Positions 30,195 to 35,052 of a DNA stretch of 64,000 nucleotides are shown here, piece after piece (within the stretch, counting starts at the first letter, position 1; each line of letters starts with the position of its first letter). Source of the DNA: Rhodoferax sp. OV413 (lineage in GTDB: Bacteria; Pseudomonadota; Gammaproteobacteria; Burkholderiales; Burkholderiaceae_C); the NCBI RefSeq assembly GCF_900104385.1, contig NZ_FNJA01000005.1, forward strand, positions 186,001 to 250,000, read 5' to 3'. A model generated the notes under the pieces. That model had not been told where the DNA came from. It ran no database searches and saw only the letters and a list, made by a program, of their open reading frames with translations. The position numbers and the translations under genes were made by a program.

Positions 30195-30956
30195 ATGCGC
30201 GACACCTTGCTTGGCCTTAGCTGGTACCAGATCATGCTGTGGGGCTGCATCTTCTTTGGCAGCCTGTACTGGGGCATGGGCGCACTCAACCAACTGATTA
30301 CCCACCATCTGATGCCCACCTTGGGCCATGGCCGCACGCTGGACCCGCGTCCGCTAAGCCCCGGCCAGCGCGCGCGGGAGCAAACCCAATCTGCCCGCAG
30401 CGTACTGCTGTTTGGGTTGGGCAGCGTCGTGCCTTGGAGCTTTCTGCAATGGGGCTGGGCCGGGCTGGCAGTCAACCCCAGCGGATGGCAGATAGCACTG
30501 GAGATTGGGGTATTGGTGGTATGGAATGAAGTGCATTTCTATGCCAACCACTGGCTGCTGCACACCCGGTGGTTGCGCCGCTTCCACCTGCTGCACCACC
30601 GCTCGGTGGTGGTGACGCCGTGGTCCACCTACTGCTTCCATCCGGTGGAAACCCTGATGCTGGGCAATGTGCTGTTGTTGCCCATGCTTATGCACGACTT
30701 CAGTGTGTGGGCGCTGCTAAGCGTGCCGGTGTTCAGCATCGTCTTCAACAACATCGGCCATTCGAACTTCGACTTCTTGCCGGATGCCGACCGTGACCGT
30801 TGGTGGCTCAACGGCGCCCGCCGCCACCACCTGCACCATGCGTGCTACCACGGCAACTTTGGCTTCATGTTTCCGTTCATGGACCGATTGTTCGGCACCG
30901 CGCTGCCACCCGATGCGGCCCAGGCGCAGATCGCCCGCCATGGGCGCAAGCCCTGA
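30195..30956 (+). CDS. Sterol desaturase/fatty acid hydroxylase family membrane protein
   Basis: This 253-residue integral membrane protein has the di-iron histidine clusters of the FA-hydroxylase superfamily: HFYANH near residue 113, HLLHH near 131, HSNFDF near 190 and HHLHH near 211. About four hydrophobic helices flank them. Family members hydroxylate or desaturate lipids at a membrane surface. It is the first gene of a four-gene operon and ends two bases before the next start. The substrate is unknown. Confidence 0.88.
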   Translation: MRDTLLGLSWYQIMLWGCIFFGSLYWGMGALNQLITHHLMPTLGHGRTLDPRPLSPGQRAREQTQSARSVLLFGLGSVVPWSFLQWGWAGLAVNPSGWQIALEIGVLVVWNEVHFYANHWLLHTRWLRRFHLLHHRSVVVTPWSTYCFHPVETLMLGNVLLLPMLMHDFSVWALLSVPVFSIVFNNIGHSNFDFLPDADRDRWWLNGARRHHLHHACYHGNFGFMFPFMDRLFGTALPPDAAQAQIARHGRKP

Positions 30957-30958
30957 AC

Positions 30959-31816
30959 ATGCTGCACTCTCCGCGTGACTGGCAGTCTGTGCTGTACCTG
31001 CTGCTACTGCCTGCGCTGGCGGCCTGGCAATGGCGTTATGGCTTTACCTGGTGGGTATACCTGCCCATGCTGTTCTTGACGCTGGGCATCAGCGTGGTCC
31101 ACCACAACCACGCACATCTGAAGATGTGGCGCAGCCGCCCGCTGAACCGTGTGACCGACATCTGGCTGAGCCTGCTGCAAGGCCACCCCGGTTTCGTATT
31201 CCACGCGACCCACAACGCCAACCACCACCGCTACCGCCATGGGCCACGCGACGCGGCCCGTACCTACCGGTTTGGGGGCGACACCAACCACCTGGTCGGC
31301 TATCTGCTCCACCCGTTTCAGGCTACGGCCGCGCTGTATCCGCTGTTCTTTCGCTGGCTGGCCCGCTTGCAGCGCCGGTCGCCGGGAGCATTTCGGTATT
31401 GCCTGCTGCAATACCTGCTGGTGGGCGGCTTGTGGGCCGGCTTGGCCTATCTCGACTGGCAGAAGTGGCTGCTGTTCATCTGGACTCCACAGCTGCACGG
31501 ACTGCACTGGCTGCTAGCCACCAACTACCTGCAGCATGCGCATGCAGACGGTGGTTCACGCATGGATTTCGCCCGCAACTTCGAGGGTTGGCTGAATCCG
31601 CTGCTGTTCAACATCGGCCTGCACACCGCCCACCACCTGCATGCACGCGCACACTGGTCCAGCTTGCCGATCCTGCACGCACGCTACCGCGGCCAGATTC
31701 ACCCAAGGCTGAACTGCGGCGGACTGGTTCCGTATATGTTCACCACCTTTGTGCTGGGCCCGCTGCTGCCGCGTTGGCGCAGCCAGTCCCTGATGCAAAC
31801 CACCGAGACTTCTTGA
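30959..31816 (+). CDS. Membrane fatty acid desaturase
   Basis: This 285-residue protein has the histidine boxes of the membrane desaturases: HHNHAH near residue 42, HATHNANHH near 73 and a C-terminal HTAHH near 220. Four or more hydrophobic helices are visible. It would introduce a double bond, or catalyse a related oxidation, in an acyl chain. The start at 30959 follows the previous stop by two bases, and its stop overlaps the next ATG by one base. Codon use matches its neighbours. Confidence 0.88.
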   Translation: MLHSPRDWQSVLYLLLLPALAAWQWRYGFTWWVYLPMLFLTLGISVVHHNHAHLKMWRSRPLNRVTDIWLSLLQGHPGFVFHATHNANHHRYRHGPRDAARTYRFGGDTNHLVGYLLHPFQATAALYPLFFRWLARLQRRSPGAFRYCLLQYLLVGGLWAGLAYLDWQKWLLFIWTPQLHGLHWLLATNYLQHAHADGGSRMDFARNFEGWLNPLLFNIGLHTAHHLHARAHWSSLPILHARYRGQIHPRLNCGGLVPYMFTTFVLGPLLPRWRSQSLMQTTETS

Positions 31817-33708
31817 TGCCCACCCGTTTTGAACGCGTCTATATCGAATCCGCCGGCTACTTTCTGCCTGGCGCACCGGTCAGCAATGCGGAGATGGAAG
31901 CCTTCATTGCGCCGATCAACCGCATCTCCGGCCGCATCAAGGCGCGCATCCTGGCCGAGAACGGCATCCAGTCGCGCCACTACGCGATCGACGCAGAAGG
32001 CAAAACCGTCATCTCCCACGCCCAAATGGCGGCCGCAGCAGCACAGGACTGCCTGGCGCGCGCCGGGGCCCGTATGGCCGATATTTCGTTGCTCAGCGTC
32101 GGTTCATCGGGTGGCGACGCGCTGATGCCAGGCTTTGCCAACATGGTGCAGGGCGAGATGGGCGCACCGCCGATGGCGACCCTGTCCAGCCAAGGCGTTT
32201 GCGCGGCCGGCGTCAGCGCCTTGCTGCACGCGGCCCAAGGGATTGAGCTGGGCGCCCACCACCAAGCCCTGGCGGTCTCCGCAGAAATGCCCTCACGCAT
32301 GTTCAAGCGCAGCCGGTTTGGTCCGCGCGGCTACCAGAGCGATTTCGACGCGCATTTCCTGCGCTGGATGCTGTCGGACGGCGCCGGCGCCCTGCTGCTG
32401 GGCGATCGCCCGCTGGGGCTGCACGGCGCCAATGGTGCGGCCGGACGCTCCGGGGTGCGGCTCAAGCTGAATTGGATCCACCAACAGAGCTTTGCCGGCG
32501 ACTACCCGGTCTGCATGCAGCTGGGCCTGAGCGAAGACCGCAGCACCTCGTTCCTCGACTACCCCAGCGCCAGCGAGGCCGAGGCTGCGGGCGCTCTGTC
32601 GCTGCGCCAGGACATCCGCCTGCTGCCGCATTTGTTCGATGTGTCCATCCACGAATACGTCAAACTGGTGAATGCGGGCTGGGTGCAATCCAGCGAGGTC
32701 GACCACTTTCTGTGCCATTACTCGTCCGAGAAATTCATCCCGGTCGTCGCCGACCTGCTGGCCAAGGCCGGGCTGGAGATTCCACGGGAGCGCTGGTACA
32801 ACAATCTGCGCAGCCGCGGCAATACCGGGGCGGCGTCGATCTTCATCATGCTGGCCGAGTTCATCGACACGCATAGCCTGAAGCCGGGTGAAAAAATCCT
32901 CTGCTTCATTCCCGAATCCGGCCGCATCAGCGCCGCCTACATGCTGCTGGAAGTCGAGGCCGCCAATGCCCCGGTCACCCGCTCCGCGCCCGAGCCCGTC
33001 GCCCGCCCGGTCGACTCCATCGCTGCGCCACACGACCCGCAGCACGCGCCGGCCCCGCTGCAGCCACTGCTCACAGCCCTGGCCGGCATCTGGCATGGCT
33101 ACCGCTCCCAGGTATGGCGCAGCCCGGTGATCCACAAGCTGGTGGCCGGGCAATTCAGCACCGCCGACTACCGCAACTGGACGGCCCAGTGGGTGCCCCA
33201 GGTGCGCGAAGGCAGCCGCTGGATGCGCGAGGCCGTTTCCGCGCTGACCGGGCCATTTGCCGAGCTCGGCGCGCTGATCGAAACCCATGCCAGCGACGAG
33301 CAGGACGACTTCCAGATCCTGTACCGAGACTACCTGGCGGCGGGCGGCAGCCTGCCGCTGGACGGCCTGCGCCGCAACCCCGGCGGCGAGGCGTTGAACA
33401 GCTACCTGCACGCCCTGGCCGCCACCGAGAATCCGCTGGGCTTGCTGGGTGCCATCTACATCATCGAGGGCACGGGCCAGCGCATCGTGCCCGCCCTGCT
33501 GCCGCTGCTGCGCCAACAGCTGCCGCTGCCGCCCAGCGCTTTCCGCTTCCTCGAATACCACGGCGCCAACGACGAAAACCACCTGGCCCGCTGGCTGGCC
33601 GCGGTGGAAATCACCCTGGCGCTGGACCCGTCGGCCGCAGAAGCGATTCTGCAAACCGCCCGCCATACCGCCCAGCTGTACCTGATGCAGTTTGAGCACA
33701 TCGCCTAA
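31816..33708 (+). CDS. Ketoacyl synthase III fused to a heme-oxygenase-like (probable non-heme iron) domain
   Basis: This 630-residue two-domain protein is unusual. Residues 1-380 form a FabH/thiolase-fold synthase with a complete Cys-His-Asn triad: Cys129 (GVCAAG), His301 (LCHYSSEKF) and Asn336 (RGNTGAAS). A Pro/Ala-rich linker (about 384-412) leads to a helical domain (412-630) of the TenA/heme-oxygenase-like fold. That domain has HxxxDxxH (His582, Asp586, His589) and Glu551, the metal ligands of heme-oxygenase-like di-iron oxidases. Glu489, His491 and Glu495 are candidates for the remaining ligands. A plausible role is to condense an acyl chain and then oxidise or cleave the product. No such product is known to me. 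Confidence 0.85.
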   Translation: MPTRFERVYIESAGYFLPGAPVSNAEMEAFIAPINRISGRIKARILAENGIQSRHYAIDAEGKTVISHAQMAAAAAQDCLARAGARMADISLLSVGSSGGDALMPGFANMVQGEMGAPPMATLSSQGVCAAGVSALLHAAQGIELGAHHQALAVSAEMPSRMFKRSRFGPRGYQSDFDAHFLRWMLSDGAGALLLGDRPLGLHGANGAAGRSGVRLKLNWIHQQSFAGDYPVCMQLGLSEDRSTSFLDYPSASEAEAAGALSLRQDIRLLPHLFDVSIHEYVKLVNAGWVQSSEVDHFLCHYSSEKFIPVVADLLAKAGLEIPRERWYNNLRSRGNTGAASIFIMLAEFIDTHSLKPGEKILCFIPESGRISAAYMLLEVEAANAPVTRSAPEPVARPVDSIAAPHDPQHAPAPLQPLLTALAGIWHGYRSQVWRSPVIHKLVAGQFSTADYRNWTAQWVPQVREGSRWMREAVSALTGPFAELGALIETHASDEQDDFQILYRDYLAAGGSLPLDGLRRNPGGEALNSYLHALAATENPLGLLGAIYIIEGTGQRIVPALLPLLRQQLPLPPSAFRFLEYHGANDENHLARWLAAVEITLALDPSAAEAILQTARHTAQLYLMQFEHIA

Positions 33709-33711
33709 GCC

Positions 33712-34620
33712 ATGAAAAACCCGCCCGACTTCCTGACCCAAGCCCACGACCCGCTGGACCCCAACCCCTGGCTGGCGCTGTACCTGGACCAGAGCACGCC
33801 GCTGCCCGGCCATGTGAAGCAGGCCTGGCTGGCCGACTCATGCTCGGTGTCGCGGCAGTTTCTGCTGCCCTTTGTGCGGCCGCTGGCGCGTACCTGCATT
33901 GTGTTGATCCAGGTGGTCAAAGCCTTTCTGCCGCGGCGCTGGGCGGCATCGCGCCTGCTGCACTGGCTGCTGGCCGAAGGCCTGAAGCGGCTGGTATCGC
34001 CCGAGGCCAACTGGCTGGTGATGCGCCACTTCCACCTGGGCGGGCAAATTCTGGAGTTCATCGCCAAGAACGCCCCCACGCCCGTAGCCACCGCACCGCT
34101 GCAGCCGCTGCGCCTGGACGATCTGAAAGACGACTTCTTTCTGAAGCACGACCTGAACCTGTTCAACTTCGTGATCCGGCTGAACCAGGCCTTGCGCGCG
34201 GCCGGCCAGCAGCTGCAGCCGGTGGCGCAGCCGGACTTCAGCATGGTGCAGGAGCCGCCGATGGCGCTGGCGGATTTCCCCCATGGCCGATTGAACAAGA
34301 TAGACCTGCAAACCGCCATCGAGTGCTTCACGCCGATCTACCAGCTGTTCCTGACGGACAACGACTTCTGGCGCGCCGCCAATTCGCTGCAGTTGGACGA
34401 AACCGTGGGCATCTACGTGGCCACCATTCTGAACACGCCGCAGCACCTGATCCTGCTCAACAACAAGCACCCACTGGTGCCGCTCAGCACCCTGCGGGCC
34501 GGCCACCGCCTGGTGGTCCATGGCCTGTCGACCGAGATGCTGCATGCGCTGCTGATGCAGATGAAGGCCGCGCAGGCCGCCGAGGCGCCGCCAGCAGCCG
34601 ATTCCAGCCCCTCACGGTAA
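33712..34620 (+). CDS. Uncharacterised protein of the lipid operon
   Basis: This 302-residue protein follows the fusion gene by three bases and is surely cotranscribed. I do not recognise its family. It has one amphipathic or hydrophobic segment (residues 55-70, ARTCIVLIQVVKAFL), a His-rich stretch (WLVMRHFHLGGQILEFIAKN) and a helical, acidic middle (DDFFLKHDLNLFNFVIRLNQ). There is no signal peptide. It looks soluble or membrane-associated. Its fixed place at the end of the operon suggests a partner or carrier function, which is inference. Confidence 0.75.
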   Translation: MKNPPDFLTQAHDPLDPNPWLALYLDQSTPLPGHVKQAWLADSCSVSRQFLLPFVRPLARTCIVLIQVVKAFLPRRWAASRLLHWLLAEGLKRLVSPEANWLVMRHFHLGGQILEFIAKNAPTPVATAPLQPLRLDDLKDDFFLKHDLNLFNFVIRLNQALRAAGQQLQPVAQPDFSMVQEPPMALADFPHGRLNKIDLQTAIECFTPIYQLFLTDNDFWRAANSLQLDETVGIYVATILNTPQHLILLNNKHPLVPLSTLRAGHRLVVHGLSTEMLHALLMQMKAAQAAEAPPAADSSPSR

Positions 34621-34665
34621 AATCCGCCCTCCACCAGCCTCTGGATGTACACCACGAACCGCTGC

Positions 34666-35052
34666 ATGACTATCCCAGCCCCAACCCCATCAGCTATTAA
34701 AAATATAGCTACTTGCGCAGTACTTTCCTGCGCTAGCGCCTTATTTTCTTTAAATTCCTGGGCTCAGGCCCGGGAGTTCCCGGCCGCTGCCTTGCGCGGC
34801 TCGCTGGAAGTGACGGTGCCACCACAGGTTGTGCTCGATGGCAAAGTCGACCAGCTGTCGCCTGGCGCCCGTATCCATGGCACCAACAACATGCTGCTGC
34901 TGTCGGGCAGCCTGGTGGGCCAGAAGGTCAAAGTGAATTACATCCGGGAAATCAACGGCGCACTCTCCGAGGTGTGGGTGCTGACCGAGGCCGAGGCTGC
35001 GGTTAAACGGCCTACCGCCAATCCCTCTCGCTTCTTTACCTTTTTCGATTAA
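34666..35052 (+). CDS. Small secreted protein whose signal peptide is encoded by an interspersed repeat
   Basis: This 128-residue protein has a signal peptide with Lys12, a hydrophobic core (residues 14-29) and the cleavage site AQA before Arg36. The mature part is small and beta-rich ([21 protein letters not shown], cut here to its main segment; [29 protein letters not shown]), with no known domain. Residues 10-30 are read from a repeat copy at 34693-34754, so the export signal derives from mobile or interspersed DNA. An in-frame ATG at 34645 is possible but I prefer 34666. Confidence 0.72.
34693..34754 (+). repeat. Interspersed repeat inside a coding sequence
   Basis: GCTATTAAAAATATAGCTAC is followed by a perfect GCGCAG/CTGCGC stem with a seven-base loop, then GCTAGCGCCTTATTTTC. 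It is read in frame as part of the signal peptide of the gene at 34666. Confidence 0.88.

Follow-up and report, generated by a model that had tools for sequence, protein, structure and literature searches.

What reaction would be carried out by a protein that joins a ketosynthase to a heme-oxygenase-like metal domain in one chain, and with which partners? The question is raised by a gene at positions 31816-33708 (+ strand) of the window, a 64,000-nucleotide stretch of DNA from Rhodoferax sp. OV413 (contig NZ_FNJA01000005.1, positions 186,001 to 250,000 of the forward strand). The gene encodes a single chain of 630 residues, here called KS-HDO, in which a ketosynthase (KS) domain is followed by a heme-oxygenase-like (HDO) domain. 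KS-HDO belongs to a module of three core parts, KS, HDO and a protein of the DUF6999 family, that is carried by many proteobacteria; this module is conserved and, as far as literature searches show, undescribed. No report of the fusion, of DUF6999 or of a KS with an HDO was found in the open literature searched, outside which most subscription papers lie, although one listed paper (PMC10849742) contains both 'ketosynthase' and 'fused'; none of the words ketosynthase, fused, fusion and polyketide occurs in the main text of an HDO review (PMC13108848).

The longest open reading frame over KS-HDO begins at 31030; the ATG at 31816 is taken as the true start because it overlaps the stop codon of the upstream FA_desaturase gene (TGATG) and because Met1-Pro2 shows no variation across the 32 sequences of alignment A1 (the alignments were made without locus L031, cut by a contig end, and locus L034, with a broken frame). 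The coordinates, frame and residue numbers that an earlier note had assigned to the gene are correct, and its proposal of a ketosynthase fused to a heme-oxygenase-like metal domain is borne out by separate profile and PDB searches of both parts and by conservation in relatives. The KS domain, of the StlD/DarB type, spans 31816-32958 (residues 1-381, with Cys129-His301-Asn336), a variable Pro/Ala-rich linker spans 32959-33042 (residues ~382-409) and the HDO domain spans 33043-33705 (residues 410-630), all on the + strand. A predicted whole-chain model has a mean predicted local distance difference test score (pLDDT) of 83.7 and a predicted template modelling score of 0.62; its C-terminal part is all-helical, and pLDDT falls below 50 at residues 389-400 of the linker. 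The longest linkers were seen in Bordetella (L027, L032 and L033), where the whole proteins have 689-721 residues compared with 630 here.

The likeness of the KS domain to the StlD/DarB family consists of full-length similarity and an identical catalytic triad in register. Residues 8-380 match the StlD/DarB beta-ketosynthase model NF005293 at 2.8e-97 and 326.2 bits, a score below the curated cut-off that is weighed further on, and the domain matches PDB entry 5gk0 (StlD) by sequence at E 1.3e-58 to 4.6e-58 with 35% identity, the Cys-His-Asn triads being in register in the alignment. Structure comparison with VIA gives the same picture: the KS part of the model matches StlD with Z 42.0 (root-mean-square deviation 2.9, 347 aligned residues), compared with Z 34.2 for OleA, a condensing KS whose structure was determined with myristoyl-CoA, and Z 32.4 for PqsD. 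Ketosynthases of the StlD/DarB type condense acyl units. It should be noted that the best 50 PDB matches listed by Foldseek for the whole-chain model are all ketosynthase-type, and that none of the best 50 listed by VIA extends beyond residue 384; the HDO part was thus barely probed and its absence from these matches is uninformative.

For the C-terminal half, a heme-oxygenase-type fold, as the earlier note had proposed, is supported by three sets of matches. Over residues 502-622 the protein scores 1.1e-11 on PF14518 ('iron-containing redox enzyme'), above the cut-off. A profile of the HDO family matches PDB entry 3dde at 9.8e-14 with E551, H582, D586 and H589 in register, and this is the sole clearly significant solved-structure match to the profile. 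Entry 3dde is a TENA/THI-4 protein of undescribed function with a heme-oxygenase-like fold; it likewise has the early His (491) and a Glu on helix 1, but carries His where the module HDO has Asp498 and is a chain of 239 residues without a KS. In a Foldseek search of a viral library, three heme oxygenase or heme-oxygenase-like proteins were matched (E 1.9e-3, 5.9e-3 and 4.3e-2; probability 1.00; 208-218 columns; TMt 0.54-0.62; ranks 5, 6 and 8), presumably over the C-terminal part of KS-HDO. Just four matches in that search, all ketosynthase-type, have E <0.001, and rank 9 is taken by a protein with a rubrerythrin domain in its name.

The residues that could bind metal were compared across 48 module proteins (39 fused and nine split, many of them close relatives). 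C129, H301, N336, H491, E495, D498, E551, H582, D586 and H589 are invariant in 48/48, among them the complete Cys129-His301-Asn336 triad and the Glu551 and HxxxDxxH motif (His582, Asp586, His589) that had been picked out from the Rhodoferax protein; position 465 is always acidic, with Glu in 45 proteins and Asp in three. From the further candidates suggested at the outset, Glu489, His491 and Glu495, the latter two are conserved and Glu489 is not, being present in 17 of 33 rows (one row being the truncated first frame of L034); Asp498, absent from that list, is also conserved. In the predicted model E465 lies on a helix at 449-476, H491 and E495 on 479-495, E551 on 543-568, H582 on 573-584, and D586 and H589 on 586-603, while D498 begins the helix 498-508 after a helix break at the ligand site, between 479-495 and 498-508. 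This order fits the HDO fold, by which E465 would sit on auxiliary helix 2 while core helix 1 would hold H491, E495 and D498, core helix 2 would hold E551 and core helix 3 the three remaining residues, the register of 465 being drawn from helix order and spacing, not from a solved structure.

The module HDO thus has the helical fold, the core helix 2 Glu and the core helix 3 HxxxD/ExxH of HDOs (48/48), but is a variant in that the canonical set of three His and three carboxylates, with a carboxylate and a His on core helix 1, is not found. Core helix 1 carries H491-x3-E495-x2-D498 in place of carboxylate-x2-His: three His are retained, the usual helix-1 His position is Asp498, and His491 lies seven residues upstream. 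Among other PF14518 proteins, position 498 is His in 35/35 and position 465 an acid in 0/35, being mostly His, in a comparison set that is narrow: 35 proteins from 50 other PF14518 loci aligned at core helix 1 (28 + 7), most of the 28 first aligned coming from one subfamily. Two of the 50 gave no match and 13 were aligned partly or weakly, including L087, which has an ambiguous helix-1 alignment and Asp in column 498; one of the 35, L113, has His at 491 as well.

HDOs such as UndA, BesC, SznF, AetD and CADD have the fold, the core helix 2 Glu and the core helix 3 HxxxDxxH in common with the module HDO, but their core helix 1 has carboxylate-x2-His or looped forms rather than HxxxExxD, and the module HDO differs further in its auxiliary helix 2 acid and in its association with a KS, whether as a fusion or as a pair. 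AetD, for example, has D76-x2-H79 on core 1, E140 on core 2 and Hx3Ex2H on core 3, whereas SznF (E189) and RohS (E93), which the acid at 465 brings to mind, have an extra carboxylate on auxiliary helix 2 (PMC11611611). The same source takes such a carboxylate to mark HDOs that are not substrate-triggered and a hydrophobic residue to mark substrate-triggered ones, among which UndA and BesC are counted; the module HDOs have an acid at 465 in 48/48 and not this hydrophobic residue. A recent review states that most HDOs have three His and three carboxylates and that about a quarter likely have three His and four carboxylates (PMC13108848). The earlier description of the ligands as the hallmark of UndA, BesC and CADD does not hold up: cores 2 and 3 match, but core 1 (HxxxExxD) and the acid at 465 differ.

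The third core part, on which the earlier note was silent as it was on the operon, is encoded by the next gene, at 33712-34620 (+ strand). Its product of 302 residues is a full-length member of PF22523 (2.9e-127; 423.8 bits against a gathering cut-off of 27), a family without described function. There are 27 invariant columns in the 33 sequences of alignment A3 (33 of 47 available DUF6999 rows), including H106, H146-D147, D198, D229, R266, H270 and E275. The predicted model is all-helical with pLDDT 90.1, and no match to it was found among solved structures (best Foldseek E 1.6, best VIA Z 3.4), which is not proof of a new fold; the sequence likewise gave nothing better than E 0.41 against the PDB. 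A relationship between DUF6999 and the HDO domain was considered and rejected, the profile comparison giving a probability of 0.3 on a per-cent scale.

The distribution of the module was established from two directions. A scan of named genome records gave 33 loci, whose record titles place them in beta- and gammaproteobacteria, and KS-HDO is present in all 33 (one cut by a contig end, one with its frame broken) and adjoined by DUF6999 in all 33 (cut by the contig end in L007 and L011). A search seeded with DUF6999 found it in 9/398 genomes of the phylum, 6/337 of the class of genome G223 and 6/274 of the class of genome G368, giving 18 different genomes. KS and HDO lie beside DUF6999 in 16 of the 18, eight times fused and eight times as two separate genes, and loci L070 and L072 are without an intact KS-HDO. 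In genome G767 (L070) no KS-HDO was found and transposase-like open reading frames, recognized by eye, stand where it would be expected beside DUF6999; in genome G747 there are only broken fragments beside DUF6999. A ninth split locus is on plasmid pTHAF3_a of Pseudoalteromonas sp. THAF3, where a KS is followed by an 'iron-containing redox enzyme family protein' and then by DUF6999 ('hypothetical protein'); this HDO matches no Pfam family at E 0.01, yet aligns with all ligands. In nine proteobacterial loci, then, two neighbouring genes encode KS and HDO separately, and DUF6999 follows each time. Since the two are split neighbouring genes elsewhere, it is likely that KS and HDO act in a shared pathway. 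Clustering of the open reading frames of 48 loci under 33 labels also places KS-HDO and DUF6999 in all labels.

Phylogenies were reconstructed from 20 of the 39 fused rows and all nine split rows (31 rows in the KS tree, 29 in the HDO tree; alignment A2 holds 25 of the 48 module HDOs). Fused rows fall on one side of one branch (100/99, 100/100) and split rows on the other, which fits a single fusion event without proving it. The outgroup KS rows sit on long branches, one joining L071 and another the rows of the G223 class, which leaves the position of the split rows relative to DarB uncertain. The KS-HDO of the window groups with Chitinibacteraceae (and Cellvibrio) and not with the proteins that the module encodes in its own family (G379, G196 and G082), and this grouping suggests horizontal transfer of the operon. 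In comparisons with L003, L046, L048 and L049, Chitinibacteraceae are likewise the closer, with 82% in the best segment to Chitinimonas.

What the module might make can be approached through the dialkylresorcinol (DAR) pathway. DarB adjoins a DarA-type protein, whereas the neighbours of the module KS, which it precedes, are HDO and DUF6999. The protein beside a DarB-like KS on a Streptomyces plasmid and in genome G379 is, judging by its position, presumably DarA; no relative of it was found in 15 of 16 module genomes. In G379 (L107, C19:293000-304000) a putative DarA relative stands beside a separate DarB-like KS, in addition to the module. Because the HDO occupies the place beside the KS and a DarA relative is present in just one of 16 module genomes, we propose, with a probability of roughly 0.4, a DarB-like condensation of two acyl units, after which the HDO would oxidise the product in an O2-dependent reaction. 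The KS would condense two acyl thioesters drawn from fatty-acid metabolism, and what it makes would most likely be of the cyclohexanedione or beta-keto type. With O2 the HDO, which is tethered by the flexible linker here and is a separate neighbour elsewhere, would then oxidise this product, for instance by aromatisation or hydroxylation, at about the point where the DarA aromatase stands in the DAR pathway (the Azoarcus genes darB and darA are entered as DAR cyclase and DAR aromatase, respectively, in PMC3949708). DUF6999 would participate in the pathway, and in most of the sampled beta- and gammaproteobacterial loci one or two membrane di-iron enzymes would add desaturation or hydroxylation of the chains.

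Several points weigh against this proposal. The metal content, substrates, step order and product of the module are all matters that we infer. DarB chemistry is not established for the KS because its scores lie below the curated cut-offs, 326.2 bits against 450 on NF005293 and 261.6 bits against 550 on the DarB model NF053539; the Pseudoalteromonas module KS reaches 372.1 bits on the former, and a Prevotella KS that NCBI names StlD/DarB is also below 550 on the latter, at 479.9 bits. The putative DarA was matched by no Pfam or NCBIfam model, its identity depending on its place beside a DarB-like KS, and since G379 holds both systems the module need not replace the DAR pair. The ligand set departs from those of the HDOs of known reaction whose described ligands were consulted, which makes analogies to known HDO chemistry weak.

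The alternatives differ mainly in what they ask of the HDO. The earlier note had given as an example condensation followed by oxidative decarboxylation, in which the KS would make an alpha-alkyl-beta-keto acid and the HDO would remove CO2 in the manner of UndA, leaving an enone or alkene. UndA is indeed an HDO acting on fatty acids (PMC13108848), and OleA is among the next-best folds to the KS (Z 34.2). However, the hydrophobic position of substrate-triggered HDOs leaves Fe1 open for the substrate carboxylate (PMC11611611), and the acid at 465 on auxiliary helix 2 in all 48 proteins makes such a decarboxylation less likely, as does the replacement of the core helix 1 His by Asp498; we regard it as unlikely. 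That same acid, as in SznF E189 and RohS E93 (PMC11611611), would suit an N-oxygenase or another substrate-independent oxygenase acting on a nitrogen-bearing product acylated by a PqsD-like KS, and PqsD is among the fold matches. Yet the KS is far nearer StlD (Z 42.0) than PqsD (Z 32.4), and the neighbour clustering shows no recurrent amine-supply or ligation gene next to the module, so that this reading is quite unlikely.

It is also conceivable that the HDO has lost oxidase chemistry and instead cyclises or hydrolyses the KS product, either without metal or with a mononuclear site. The departure of core helix 1 from the canonical ligand set would agree with this, as would the presence of metal-independent and mononuclear members within the fold (PMC13108848), but seven His/Asp/Glu candidates are invariant in 48/48 and HxxxDxxH is retained, and we consider such a loss unlikely as well. 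A very unlikely role is that of an oxygen- or peroxide-handling domain that has no hand in making the product and instead has a protective or regulatory function for the KS or the cell, on the model of Acinetobacter baumannii DtpC, an HDO-like protein that protects against desiccation-linked oxidative stress and requires its ligand residues. DtpC is described with a catalase operon and not with a KS in the passages of that report that were consulted (PMC13232832), whereas the module HDO is paired with a KS in both split and fused forms. Condensation followed by HDO-dependent oxidation is the reading that we prefer, at the strength given above.

In the window the module lies in a four-gene operon on the + strand with intergenic gaps of 2, -1 and 3 bases, KS-HDO being third and DUF6999 fourth. 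Gene 1 (30195-30956, +) encodes an FA_hydroxylase-family, sterol desaturase-like membrane di-iron enzyme (PF04116, 7.3e-23) and gene 2 (30959-31816, +; scanned from 30953) an FA_desaturase-family membrane enzyme (PF00487, 6.1e-25) with the histidine boxes HHNHAH, HATHNANHH and HTAHHLH; neither has a PDB sequence match up to E 0.1. The former family is present in 29 of the 33 named loci, one of which has it downstream of DUF6999 with 37% identity, and the latter in 28, and in the clustering the membrane enzymes occur in 20 and 19 labels. The two are optional parts of the module. When open reading frames overlapping the four operon genes were set aside, the only other families in at least four genus labels were an ABC-ATPase at varying places (nine) and a LysR-type family (four). 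After DUF6999, a 135-residue open reading frame at 34645-35052, without a Pfam match and possibly exported (by eye), is followed in the same direction by a MiaB-like gene, named from its sequence alone; neither was found beside the module in the 33 named loci.

Other neighbours were seen in particular loci. A protein with MFS, acyltransferase and AMP-ligase parts adjoins DUF6999 in one split locus (L051:4697-8098), five Iodobacter-type loci (L013, L016, L018, L019 and L020) encode, a few kb downstream, 626-residue relatives of its MFS/acyltransferase part, and its ligase part finds a weak, partial match in L030; this protein was not adopted as a core part. Directly upstream of the KS in two split gammaproteobacterial loci (L052:11441-12007 and L073:5436-5993) are related membrane proteins (185-188 residues, 64% identity) that carry His-rich motifs and match no Pfam family.

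The HDO group is expanding fast: more than 10,000 sequences belong to it, of which about a dozen have been tested (PMC13108848). The module adds a conserved subgroup whose ligand set differs, here in one chain with the probable maker of its substrate, and it gives DUF6999 a context. Tentatively, KS, HDO and DUF6999 may constitute an undescribed proteobacterial pathway that turns two acyl chains into an oxidised lipid or signal, with an HDO of a new class, in which an upstream His takes over from a helix-1 His replaced by Asp, and with DUF6999 as an enzyme or partner whose fold may be absent from the PDB. The fusion of KS and HDO makes the reaction directly testable, and its study would show how an HDO metal site can be rebuilt.

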